18,165 nucleotides of DNA, from assembly GCA_013362835.1 (NCBI GenBank), contig JABFVJ010000500.1:1-18165 (forward strand). The letters run 5' to 3'. The notes beneath the pieces are model-generated. The model saw only the letters and a program-made list of their open reading frames with translations. It did not search any database and had not been told where the DNA came from. Positions 3,347-13,729 of the stretch are shown piece after piece (positions within the stretch are counted from its first letter, which is position 1; the number at the start of each line of letters is the position of its first letter). A program made the position numbers and the translations under genes. This DNA comes from Nonomuraea sp. (GTDB lineage Bacteria > Actinomycetota > Actinomycetes > Streptosporangiales > Streptosporangiaceae).

Positions 3347-3724
3347 GTGTTGGGGGGTGCGCGGAGCGTGGGTGGTCTCGAGGAGCGACTGCTCTACCAG
3401 GACGACCAACTCAAGATCATGGTGCGTGGCTGCCCGGCGGCGCCCGCGGCCCCTGCCGTCACGCTGATCGGCGAGATCGACGCCACCAACAGCCCCGCGC
3501 TCGCCAGCACGCTGGCCTGCTCGCGCGGGGAGAGCGCGTACATCGTGGTCGACACCGGCGAGCTGACCTTCATCGACCTGTCCGGGCTGCGGGTGCTGGT
3601 GATGCCCGCGCTGCCCCCCGACGAGCGGTGGATCCGGCTGCACAACATCACGCCGCACCAGCGGCGGATGCTGCGCATGATGGGCTGGTTCTACGCCCCG
3701 CGCCCCTACGACGTGCCGCTGTAG
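3347..3724 (+). CDS. STAS-domain protein, anti-sigma-factor antagonist type
   Basis: A 125-residue single STAS domain. The strand [11 protein letters not shown] (42-52) and the loop [11 protein letters not shown] (74-84) match anti-sigma-factor antagonists such as SpoIIAA and RsbV. Ser79 is the expected phosphoacceptor; in this family the unphosphorylated protein binds an anti-sigma kinase and releases a sigma factor. GTG at 3347 is chosen because GAGG lies 5 nt upstream; GTG 3368 would trim seven residues. The gene is alone, with no kinase or sigma factor next to it; a HATPase anti-sigma kinase does occur about 14 kb away at the right end. Its last 19 bases overlap the end of the convergent geosmin synthase gene, leaving no room for a terminator between them. 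Confidence 0.85.
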
Positions 3725-5898
3725 ACGGCCCTGTGGACGACGGTCGCGGCCGAGGTGCCGAGGCCCGTGGGCCCGCCCAGGCGGAAGCGCGGCGGCTGGT
3801 GGTGGCGGCGCAGGCTCGCTTCGTCATAGCGGAAGCAGCCGCGGTGCCAGTTGAGTATGCCGGTCAGCCAGTGACGCAACTCGACCAGGAACGAGTCGAG
3901 CGCCCCCCGCTCCGCGCAGTCGAGCCCGAGGTCGTCGCAGAGAACCGGCAACTCGTGCGCGACGATGTGCTGGAACTGCTTCATCCGCGAGGTCAGCAGG
4001 TCGTTGACGATGGCGAGCGCGGCCGGGTAGTCGCAGTCGAAGAAGTTCTGCACCACCAGGACGCAGTTGTGCACCTCGCCCTCGAACTCGATCTCCTTCT
4101 GGTACGAGAAGATGTCGTTGATCAGCAGCCCGCAGTCCATGACCGCGTTCTTCAGCGCCCGCATCGGCCCGCTGTCGTGCACCGCCGGAGGGATCAGGTC
4201 GGCGTGGCGCAGCCGGCACAGGTTCATGGTGAAGTCGGAGCCGAAGGTCAGCCTGCGCATCTCCATGTAGTCCACCGGATCGGGGACGTGCCCGGCCACC
4301 TCGTTGGCCAGCTCCCACAGCCAGCCCTCGCACATCGTCTCGATCGTCGTCCGCAGCTCGGCGCGGGCCGCGGGCGACATCGGCCCCGCCGTACGCGCCC
4401 ACAGGTCGGCGAGGCCGCGTTCGAGCGCGCTCACCGGCGGCGGCGGAGGCGTCCCGTCCAGTGGCATGAACGCCGAGAACCGGTCGACCGTGATCTTGGC
4501 CGCCGCCAGGTTGCCCGTCCTCGTGAAGACGACGGGGAAGTAGTCGTCGCCGTAGGTGCCCCAGCACAGCCAGTGGGAGGCGAGGTCGAGCTCCTCGGGG
4601 GTCGCGTCGGGATGCAGGCCGGCGGCGCACAGCGGCAGGTCGTAGTCGATCAGCTTGTCGGCGTCCCACACGGCCGAGCCCGCGACGCCGGGCTGCGCCT
4701 CCAGCAGGCCCATCGCCGCGCTCCAGGTCACCGCGTTGCGGCGGGCCGCGTCGAGGTGGGGGGAGAGGCGGAGCTCGAAGGGCACGTACAGCTCGGGGAT
4801 TCGCGACGGGCCGACGGGCCGGCGCCGGACGTGCGTGAAGTTGCGCAGCCGCTTGGCCCCCGTGAGGTCGATCAGGGACTTCATGCCGAGCGGCCTGGCC
4901 GTCGCCGCCTCCTGGTTCATGTAGCGGCTCGACCGCAGGTGCCACTCGTGGCCGCCGGACTGCCAGTCCTGCAGCCCCTTGACGTAGGCCAGCACGCCGG
5001 CGGCGGCGATCGGGTCGATCGCGTGCTCGACGAAGAGCGGCCCCAGCTCGGTCAGCGCGGTGTGCTCGAACTGCTGCAGGCGCGAGGTGAGCAGGTCGTT
5101 GACGGCGTCGGCGGCCTCCTGCGTGGTGCACCCGAGGAACGTCTCCAGCACCAGCACGCCGTTGCTCAGCTCACCCTCGTCGCGCACCTCCCGCTCGTAG
5201 GAGAACAGGTCGTTACGCAGGTGGACGGCGTCGGAGAAGCTGTCGCGCAGCACCCGCAGCGGCCGCGTGCCGGCCAGCCGGGCGGGCACCTCGGCCCGCG
5301 CCGCGTGCTCGACGAGCCCCGCCGACCAGGGCGCGCCGCCCACCTTGCGCCGCATCTCGATGTACTCGACCGGGTTGGCGATCCGGCCCTCGTTGATGTT
5401 GGACAACTCCCAGATCGACTCGTTGAGCAGGTGTCTCGTGCTCTCGGCGAAGCGCCGCCGCCAGTCGGCCGACATGCCGGGCACCGTACGCCGCCACAGG
5501 TCGGCGAGGCCCGCCTCGACCGGGTTGGCCGGCTCCGGCATGGACAGGTCATCGCCCATCGGCATGAACTGGGGCAACCTGTCCAGGTGTCGCTTGCCGC
5601 CCACGAGGTCGCCCGACCGCTTGAAGACGTCGAGGAAGTGGTCGTCGAAGAAGAAGACCCAGACGTACCAGTCGGTGATCAGGCAGAGCTCGGCGCCGTC
5701 GCAGTCGGGGTGGGTGTAGGCGCACATGAGGGGGTAGTCGTGGCCGTCGAGGTCTGACTCCTCCCAGACGCCCGCCCCCTCCAGCATGCCCATGTCGCGC
5801 GCCCACTGCTTGGCATGCGTACGGGCCTCCTCCAGATGCGGGTTGAGCCGTGCCGGATACGGCATGTAGAAGTCGGGCAGGACGAACGGCTGAGCCAT
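3706..5898 (-). CDS. geoA: Two-domain germacradienol/geosmin synthase
   Basis: A 730-residue class I terpene cyclase with two complete alpha-domains, the architecture of Streptomyces geosmin synthase. By the known family mechanism, the N-terminal domain cyclises farnesyl diphosphate to germacradienol and the C-terminal domain converts it to geosmin plus acetone. Domain 1 has the acidic Mg-binding motif DDHFLD (85-90) and the NSE motif NDLFSYERE (229-237). Domain 2 has DDYFP (451-455) and NDIFSYQKE (594-602). The conserved stretches [24 protein letters not shown] and [13 protein letters not shown] match geosmin synthases rather than 2-methylisoborneol synthase. There is no disordered N-terminal extension; a Pro/Gly/Ser-rich tail of about 41 residues ends the protein. 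The ATG shares one base with the stop of the upstream encapsulin gene (TGATG), implying translational coupling. It is the last gene of a five-gene operon. Confidence 0.95.
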
Positions 5899-12626: not shown

Positions 12627-13729
12627 ATCTCGGGCTGCCCGTACGACATCGGGTTCGGCGGGCGTCCAGGCAGGTCATGGTGGGGTCGGTGCCGGTGGGG
12701 GGTGACGCGCCGGTGTCCGTCCAGTCGATGACGACGACGGTCACCGCCGACGTCGACGCCACCTTGCGGCAGATCGCGGAGCTGACGGCGGCCGGCTGTC
12801 AGATCGTCCGCGTGGCCGTGCCGACGCAGGACGACGCCGACGCGCTGCCGGCCATCGCGCGGAAGTCGCAGATCCCGGTGATCGCCGACATCCACTTCCA
12901 GCCGCGTTACGTGTTCGCGGCGATCGAGGCGGGCTGCGCGGCGGTACGCGTCAATCCCGGCAACATCAAGAAATTCGACGACAAGGTGGGCGAGATCGCT
13001 CGGGCGGCGTCCGACGCGGGGGTGCCCATCCGCATCGGGGTCAACGCGGGCTCGCTCGACCCCCGGCTGCTGCGCAAGCACGGCAAGGCCACGCCCGCCG
13101 CGCTGGTCGAGTCGGCGCTGTGGGAGTGCTCGCTGTTCGAGGAGCACGGCTTCCGCGACCTCAAGATCTCCGTCAAGCACCACGACCCGCAGGTGATGGC
13201 GGCCGCCTACCGGCTGCTCGCCCGGAGCTGCGACTATCCGCTGCACCTCGGCGTCACCGAGGCGGGCCCCCTCATGCAGGGCACGATCAAGTCGGCGGTC
13301 GCGTTCGGGATCCTGCTCGACGAGGGCATCGGCGACACGATCAGGGTCTCGCTGTCCGCGCCTCCGGTGGAGGAGGTCAAGGTCGGGATCGGCATCCTCG
13401 AGTCGCTGGGGCTGCGGCGGCGGGGCCTGGAGATCGTCTCGTGCCCGTCGTGCGGGCGGGCCCAGGTCGACGTCTACGGCCTGGCCGAACGCGTGACGGC
13501 GGCCCTCGACGGGTTCCCCCACCCGCTGCGGGTGGCCGTGATGGGCTGCGTGGTCAACGGGCCGGGCGAGGCCAGGGAGGCCGACCTCGGGGTGGCGTCC
13601 GGCAACGGGAAGGGGCAGATCTTCGTCAGGGGCGAGGTGGTCAAGACCGTCCCCGAGTCGCGGATCGTGGAGACGCTGGTCGAGGAGGCCCTGCGGCTGG
13701 CCGAGGGCGAGGGCGGGACCGAGGGCTGA
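12614..13729 (+). CDS. ispG: 4-hydroxy-3-methylbut-2-en-1-yl diphosphate synthase
   Basis: A 371-residue IspG (GcpE), the penultimate MEP enzyme, converting MEcPP to HMBPP with a 4Fe-4S cluster. The N-terminal TIM-barrel block has [20 protein letters not shown] and [17 protein letters not shown]. The cluster ligands are Cys277 and Cys280 in [13 protein letters not shown] and Cys312 in [10 protein letters not shown], with Glu319 as the expected fourth ligand. GTG 12614 is chosen because GGGAG lies 8 nt upstream and the protein then begins as family members do ([20 protein letters not shown]). It overlaps the dxs end by 13 nt, so the two are co-translated. It ends before a strong hairpin. Together with IspH it supplies both iron-sulfur exit steps of the pathway. 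Confidence 0.95.

Follow-up and report, generated by a model that had tools for sequence, protein, structure and literature searches.

Encapsulation of a terpene cyclase is known for 2-methylisoborneol (2-MIB) synthase. Here we analyze 18,165 nucleotides of DNA from Nonomuraea sp. (contig JABFVJ010000500.1, hereafter the window) in which the gene of a two-domain germacradienol/geosmin synthase (GS) lies beside two family 2B encapsulin genes (Enc1 and Enc2), a prenyl synthase (PT) gene and paralogues of methylerythritol phosphate (MEP) pathway genes. Several related systems are described in the literature. A 2021 study (Andreas and Giessen, PMC8346489) proposed GS-like cyclases as cargo of family 2B shells. 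It splits 904 family 2B operons with terpene cyclases into 2-MIB synthase-like and geosmin synthase-like types, describes as a possible targeting signal an 11-residue motif that GS carries both between its domains and at its C-terminus, reports 165 systems that combine a cyclase with a prenyl transferase, and notes precursor genes near the prenyl transferases. A conserved order in cyanobacteria and deltaproteobacteria places two shell genes (cnb) after geoA (PMC7251104), and all myxobacterial geosmin clusters examined in PMC12224551 contain encapsulins.

The window locus resembles the geoA-cnb-cnb and myxobacterial clusters in placing a geosmin synthase beside cNMP-binding shell genes, and adds a prenyl synthase, ispH and a divergent dxs-ispG pair, whereas no prenyl synthase or MEP genes are named for those clusters in the portions of PMC7251104 and PMC12224551 available. 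With the family 2B cyclase systems of PMC8346489 it has in common a two-domain cyclase, family 2B shells, a targeting-type motif and the combination of cyclase and prenyl transferase, but the window GS and all 51 Nonomuraea GS lack the interdomain motif copy, and the prenyl synthase lacks a long N-terminal domain. Streptomyces lydicus has a two-component encapsulin (Dutcher 2025, PMC12407261) that is likewise an Enc1/Enc2 pair with VWK- and RR-type sequences at diagnostic motif 1; in contrast, it belongs to a xylulose kinase operon for which no cargo is known, and its Sl-Enc1 cannot assemble alone, whereas Nonomuraea keeps Enc1 after loss of Enc2. In the eshA-mibA-mibB system of 2-MIB biosynthesis (PMC6428758) a shell gene also shares an operon with a terpene synthase, but this is a single shell gene accompanied by a methyltransferase, with no MEP genes named in the available text; similar 2-MIB-like loci appear to be present elsewhere in many Nonomuraea genomes. 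An earlier reading of the window's sequence, the first-pass annotation, had presented a geosmin cyclase as a cargo that would extend the known scope of these compartments. The pairing of geosmin synthase and shell is, however, already found in PMC8346489 and PMC7251104, and we rejected it as a novelty. Literature searches, with subscription papers and preprints mostly outside their reach, found no description of MEP genes in this locus type and no paper on encapsulin and Nonomuraea or on geosmin synthase and Nonomuraea. As far as these searches reach, what is new comprises the MEP paralogues on separate branches, the recurring order PT-(ispH)-Enc1-GS-Enc2, the genus-wide pattern of shell-GS linkage and tail motif, and the co-occurrence of GS with encapsulins; in short, a known shell-cyclase core to which this locus type adds MEP paralogues and a genus-wide pattern.

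Judging from the sequences, we consider it reasonably probable that GS is loaded in an Enc1/Enc2 shell and is fed by the locus's own prenyl synthase and MEP paralogues. Open reading frames (ORFs), Pfam and NCBIfam bear out the first-pass description of five minus-strand genes diverging from overlapping dxs and ispG, all seven at the positions given then (Table 1). From the prenyl synthase to Enc2 the minus-strand genes are separated by gaps of 11, 28 and 31 nt, Enc2 and GS overlap by 1 nt, and the divergent gap between the prenyl synthase and dxs spans 125 nt (10753-10877). The nearest relatives of the window GS are from Nonomuraea, N. spiralis being 87% identical in GS and 95% in Enc1. The module is real and recurs across genomes; a shell gene adjoins GS in 51 genomes, which rules out chance or an assembly artefact as the source of the arrangement.

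Both shell proteins score above the curated cut-off of 400 bits for the family 2B model NF041163 (767.7 for Enc1 and 714.6 for Enc2) and consist of an SrpI-like HK97 domain with a cNMP-binding insertion, in agreement with the family 2B identity assigned at first pass. The nearest PDB structures are 9BJE for Enc1 and 9BIX for Enc2, which are Sl-Enc1 and Sl-Enc2 of S. lydicus (PMC12407261). At the published diagnostic motif 1, which reads TVWK in Enc1 and RRRK in Enc2 (PMC12407261), the upstream window protein has VVWK and the downstream one RRKK, and by this sequence mark the two are therefore an Enc1/Enc2 pair. The same holds for Nonomuraea at large, where VWK occurs in 51 of 51 readable first shells and RR in 37 of 37 readable second shells (G012 and G015, read on the wrong strand, were excluded from these counts).

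GS has two terpene synthase domains, each with an aspartate-rich and an NSE metal-binding motif; the motif residues (D85-D86-H87, N229-D230-S233-E237, D451-D452 and N594-D595-S598-E602) are invariant in 24 aligned GS. The N domain finds its best PDB match in 5dz2/5dw7, with 5dz2 as the nearest solved N domain, and the predicted conversion of farnesyl diphosphate (FPP) to geosmin is likely. In an AlphaFold2 model (24 sequences; mean predicted local distance difference test score 85.9) both domains are predicted with confidence, and low confidence is confined to a linker (residues 326-353) and a tail (704-730) that contains the C-terminal 10-residue motif. When at least 5 of the 7 letters of GPTGLGT were required and GS matches below 400 bits were dropped (e.g. 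the second GS-like gene of G044), the C-terminal motif was present in 50 of 50 uncut Nonomuraea GS, the one miss being the contig-cut G037 (60 rows were listed, with nine loci represented twice), and it is retained while the remainder of the tail drifts. At the same threshold the interdomain copy was absent from the window GS and all 51 Nonomuraea GS. This motif in a low-confidence tail and the co-occurrence with encapsulins described below support the first-pass view of GS as a predicted shell cargo, and its encapsulation is likely.

The gene order, whose conservation in relatives the first-pass annotation had made its test, recurs within Nonomuraea and in other genera. Among the best 80 loci of a longer list of GS matches, some of them short contigs, 9 of 9 from Nonomuraea carry the prenyl synthase, Enc1 and GS, and a shell gene is present in the stretch in 3 of the 71 others. 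Among 54 sampled Nonomuraea genomes, 53 have a family 2 encapsulin and 51 have GS, and the survey for GS beside shell genes that had been suggested at first pass found a shell gene directly beside GS in all 51. Mapping of the 53 cluster loci gave Enc1 in all, a full-length prenyl synthase in 51, GS full-length in 50, contig-cut in one and absent from two, IspH full-length in 34, partial in one and absent from 18, Dxs full-length in 15, and IspG full-length in 13 and partial in three, with both Dxs and IspG full-length in 12. Seven divergent Nonomuraea genomes lack the usual flanks (a weak NlpC match occurs in G041); GS lies between two shells in six of these and comes after the only shell in G042, and the prenyl synthase is present in five (G010 and G039 have none in the stretch), IspH in three and dxs in three. 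Outside the genus we considered 60 GS loci of the family, chosen from 141. A shell gene lies within 500 bp of GS in 15 of them, and the order PT-(ispH)-Enc1-GS-Enc2 occurs in 11, the second shell matching in pieces in some. An IspH paralogue is found in 7 of the 60, five of them inside that order; in two genomes (L234, L238) it immediately precedes GS, and the stretch contains no shell gene. No dxs or ispG was found in the 60 loci, both being seen in Nonomuraea only; among the best 80 loci, a single one outside the genus (L062) has a Dxs match, which is 29% identical and lies about 5 kb away from GS. Ratios of nonsynonymous to synonymous substitution (dN/dS) relative to N. spiralis are 0.14 for Enc1, 0.31 for Enc2, 0.29 for GS, 0.24 for IspH, 0.25 for the prenyl synthase and, up to the truncation, 0.16 for IspG; purifying selection of this kind, estimated from sequence, shows function, not which function. 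Shell and cyclase are the core of the locus, and the precursor part is an accessory lost by lineages.

Co-occurrence extends the association to genomes in which the genes lie apart. In raw counts, which are uncorrected for shared ancestry and in which the shell family PF19307 also covers family 2A, PF19307 is found in 164 of 164 GS-positive vs 35 of 86 GS-negative genomes in a sample of 250 from the family, and in 92 of 92 GS-positive (68 of 68 outside the family sample) vs 24 of 302 GS-negative genomes in a sample of 394 from the class. As a lifestyle control, we used SsgA, present in 241 of the 250 family genomes; among SsgA-positive genomes, a shell accompanies 164 of 164 with GS vs 30 of 77 without it. 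GS-negative family genomes of at least 7 Mb have a shell in 13 of 24 cases. A PF19307 match was also obtained in all 50 tested genomes of the 71 non-Nonomuraea loci, albeit a partial one in G081, and a few GS-positive genomes (e.g. G247, G348) have only weak or 2A-like PF19307 scores. Unlinked GS may thus still meet a shell.

The first-pass annotation had also allowed for FPP synthesis within the shell, and a packaged prenyl synthase, in addition to or instead of GS, would place FPP synthesis and cyclization together. Polyprenyl transferases are described as family 2B cargo (NCBIfam; PMC8346489), the prenyl synthase is full-length in 51 of the 53 cluster loci, including both that lack GS, and two luminal loops could load two cargos, as suggested in PMC12407261. 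The protein itself fits poorly: in the prenyl transferases published as cargo, the N-terminal 50-100 residues are disordered (PMC8346489), whereas here 38 residues precede the Pfam domain and the first ~20 vary between species. Its best PDB match is a farnesyl diphosphate synthase (8f8f), and it reaches the cut-off of none of the NCBIfam models listed for it; the score against the cargo model NF041169 (279.8, cut-off 450) is on the level of that against the mycobacterial FPP/geranyl diphosphate synthase model (279.7, cut-off 600), which aligns from residue 12. We therefore regard its packaging as unlikely and dropped it as the main story; with neither the long N-terminal extension nor a score above 450, the prenyl synthase lacks these cargo features and probably stays outside the shell.

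With GS as the favored cargo, the precursor genes can be considered as its supply. The three MEP enzymes score above curated equivalog cut-offs (IspH against NF002189, 507.7 vs 444; Dxs against TIGR00204, 524.3 vs 465.95; IspG against NF001540, 522.8 vs 345) and retain cysteine-bearing and other conserved segments in the alignment, the C-terminal cysteine segments of IspG included; which residues among these are catalytic is our assumption. Each enzyme finds one or more matches in all 54 Nonomuraea genomes, and genomes with a cluster MEP copy have a further full-length match elsewhere, here termed housekeeping; for the window's own genome, the number of copies is deduced from these relatives. 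Compared with cluster copies and with housekeeping copies (the latter taken from seven genomes in the case of IspH and from six for the other two enzymes), the window Dxs is 65-85% vs 52-54% identical, IspH 77-89% vs 62-65%, and IspG 85-93% vs 83-85%. In trees from which matches covering less than 85% of the query were dropped, and from which the truncated IspG of N. spiralis and the split IspG of G043 are therefore absent, cluster copies separate from other copies with branch support of 100/100 for Dxs, 96/97 for IspG and 89/92 for IspH, the last below the support mark of the tree tool. Cluster-type Dxs also lacks ~36 residues that are present in housekeeping Dxs (window ~11478-11490), a gap that may mark a distinct Dxs subfamily. 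These data support dxs, ispG and ispH as paralogues belonging to the locus, on branches apart from the other genome copies, which upholds this part of the first-pass view. The "whole upstream supply" claimed then goes too far: Dxs, IspG, IspH and the prenyl synthase are present, and the other MEP steps are absent from the locus.

The start-to-start gap between the prenyl synthase and dxs, 125 nt in the window, is 122-124 nt in 12 measured genomes. An alignment of 46 upstream regions, including the window and restricted to loci whose prenyl synthase match starts at residue 1, revealed an element, TTTACA-N18-TAACTA, that is kept in nearly all rows with or without dxs (it is absent from G041, and a few rows vary), and which we infer to be a putative promoter. 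A terminator and sigma-70 scan, stricter than the reading of the alignment, found nothing, this element included.

Table 1. Coordinates of the geosmin synthase-encapsulin locus and its elements in the window.
Feature	Position	Strand	Details and basis
Two-domain germacradienol/geosmin synthase (GS), predicted cargo	3706..5898	-	730 aa; Pfam Terpene_syn_C_2 in two stretches
GS C-terminal 10-residue motif (aa 709-718), proposed loading tag	3745..3774	-	AlphaFold2 low-confidence tail; targeting role proposed in PMC8346489
Enc2, family 2B encapsulin shell protein	5898..7280	-	460 aa; SrpI-like + cNMP_binding
Enc1, family 2B encapsulin shell protein	7312..8721	-	469 aa; NF041163
ispH paralogue	8750..9691	-	313 aa; NF002189 and tree branch
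Short-chain prenyl diphosphate synthase, probable FPP synthase	9703..10752	-	349 aa; polyprenyl_synt
Promoter-like element TTTACA-N18-TAACTA upstream of prenyl synthase	10790..10820	-	Alignment of 46 upstream regions and window sequence
dxs paralogue	10878..12626	+	582 aa; lacks ~36-residue loop; TIGR00204 and tree branch
ispG paralogue, overlapping dxs	~12614..13729	+	~371 aa; NF001540 and tree branch

Next to ispG, the window encodes a likely secreted alpha-lytic-type protease with a CBM5/12 domain (13833-16154, minus strand). This gene is full-length in 11 of the 53 Nonomuraea loci, and adjoins ispG or an ispG remnant in 10 of those.

Several observations, on the cargo as well as on the shell and supply sides, count against the loading of GS in a shell with its own supply. 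GS scores 1147.1 bits (residues 3-718) against NF041168, the NCBIfam model for family 2 encapsulin terpene cyclase cargo, below the cut-off of 1200, and the window protein is for this reason named geosmin synthase and not NF041168 cargo. In the family sample of other genera, the C-terminal motif is present in 12 of 15 shell-linked GS, in 3 of 3 with a shell nearby and in 35 of 42 unlinked GS; three shell-linked GS thus lack it at the threshold, one of them lacking both copies. Outside Nonomuraea in the 80-locus set, it is present in 3 of 3 linked and ~53 of 68 unlinked GS (55 by script, with the matches in L063 and L080 lying inside the domain and not in the tail). Because most unlinked GS carry it too, the C-terminal motif does not mark shell linkage; its frequency in GS that are not beside a shell gene would fit loading in trans or another role. 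The co-occurrence counts share the breadth of PF19307 and the common ancestry noted above. In two genomes (G048 and G049; L202 and L203), the prenyl synthase, its upstream element, ispH and Enc1 are kept, GS is absent and NlpC is directly next, representing either a recent loss of GS or another use of the shell. Finally, 2-MIB biosynthesis does not need the related shell protein EshA, as stated in PMC6428758, and by analogy the shell may tune rather than enable synthesis.

Such findings raise the alternative that co-regulation and shared ancestry alone account for the neighborhood, with GS free in the cytosol and the shell doing another job. The retention of Enc1 without GS would agree with this, and so would the syntenic flanks (full ADH matches in 33 and NlpC in 26 of the 53 Nonomuraea loci), because of which gene order within the genus is partly inheritance. 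Most GS outside Nonomuraea, moreover, are not beside a shell gene: 68 of 71 among the best 80 loci, some on short contigs, and in the family sample of other genera 42 of 60 have no shell in the stretch, with three more 1 to 5 kb away. On the other hand, the gene set persists through changes in gene order and flanks, no GS without an encapsulin was found among the 164 family and 92 class genomes that carry it, and the tail motif outlasts the drift around it, so that we give this alternative a low probability and retain GS as the likely cargo.

As for the shell, Enc2 is repeatedly lost or cut. It is absent from 13 main-clade clusters and from G042, and truncated in G023, where the match (L193) covers the HK97 part alone (query residues 172-458), most of the cNMP-binding insertion being gone. 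On the Enc1 tree, which includes neither the seven divergent genomes nor G012 and G015 with their wrong-strand reads, the single-shell state requires seven changes, five of them forced. Since S. lydicus Enc1 is unable to form shells alone (PMC12407261) and Nonomuraea clusters keep Enc1 without Enc2, Nonomuraea Enc1 probably differs from its S. lydicus counterpart or borrows a partner. The four single shells that were read outside Nonomuraea (L232, L245, L257, L285) are all of the RR type. A further encapsulin occurs elsewhere (L287-L313) in 27 of 46 main-clade Nonomuraea genomes, namely in 13 of 13 with complete Enc2 loss vs 14 of 32 with the pair; counting the truncated G023 as a loss gives 13 of 14 (Fisher p 0.003), and with few independent events the association of complete Enc2 loss with another encapsulin is suggestive only. 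The further encapsulin adjoins a weak terpene synthase match in 24 of the 27, including all 13 without Enc2. Five neighboring ORFs were read: those at L298 and L312 encode terpene synthases that carry a GLGTST-type motif close to their start, that at L287 is in our reading methyltransferase-like, and those at L302 and L307 have neither a terpene synthase motif nor methyltransferase character. These are presumably 2-MIB loci.

On the supply side, the nearest relative N. spiralis (L001, 4117-5148) has dxs deleted and the C-terminal part of ispG lost, while its prenyl synthase, ispH, Enc1, Enc2 and GS are all full-length; the supply arm is decaying in this closest relative, and dxs and ispG are therefore dispensable. 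In addition, ispG is split in two pieces in G043 and reduced to a fragment in G042, and the gap between the prenyl synthase and dxs is wider, ~160-225 nt by match ends, in the divergent loci G022, G044 and G053. The MEP paralogues could accordingly be leftovers of another isoprenoid cluster that landed beside the locus, with no part in geosmin supply. This decay and these wider gaps would fit such an origin, as would the patchy distribution (of the 53 loci, 15 have a full dxs and 13 a full ispG, and on the Enc1 tree the presence of dxs takes six changes, of which well-supported branches force five), the finding of dxs or ispG in none of the 60 loci of other genera, and a further MEP set in G050 (L206) and G053 (L225), with ispH, ispG and dxs close together and away from the geosmin locus. 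Yet the cluster copies of all three enzymes, divergent loci included, fall on their own branches, 13 of the 16 dxs-bearing loci, the window included, keep a spacing of 122-125 nt, and IspH lies inside the operon and also occurs in 7 of the 60 GS loci of other genera. We consider a leftover origin improbable, and a role in geosmin supply the better account.

In the mechanism we propose, Enc1 and Enc2 would co-assemble into a mixed shell, by inference from the S. lydicus proteins (PMC12407261), and the C-terminal motif would load the cyclase into it. Farnesyl diphosphate, made in the cytosol, where the prenyl synthase and the MEP enzymes probably act, would enter via shell pores, and germacradienol would be held near the second GS active site until geosmin forms. 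When the cluster is on, slow MEP steps would be relieved by Dxs, the entry enzyme, and by IspG and IspH, which are iron-sulfur enzymes. More tentatively, GS could be a general family 2 encapsulin client across actinomycetes, loaded in trans wherever the two genes are not neighbors, and GPTGLGT would serve all of them as the loading tag. The Nonomuraea-type locus would then be the fullest form, in which a single divergent control region governs shell, cyclase and a private MEP-to-FPP supply that has a Dxs subfamily to itself.

If GS is indeed loaded and supplied in this manner, the locus would represent a compartment tied to its own carbon supply, with shell, cyclase, prenyl synthase and the MEP entry and iron-sulfur steps switched on together. 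The losses of dxs, ispG, ispH, Enc2 or GS among Nonomuraea would constitute natural experiments through which the roles of shell components and precursor supply become testable. Lastly, the co-occurrence of GS and encapsulins suggests that geosmin formation is generally compartmentalized in soil actinomycetes, which could help explain why geosmin synthase expressed in Escherichia coli gave germacradienol and germacrenes and no geosmin (PMC7251104).

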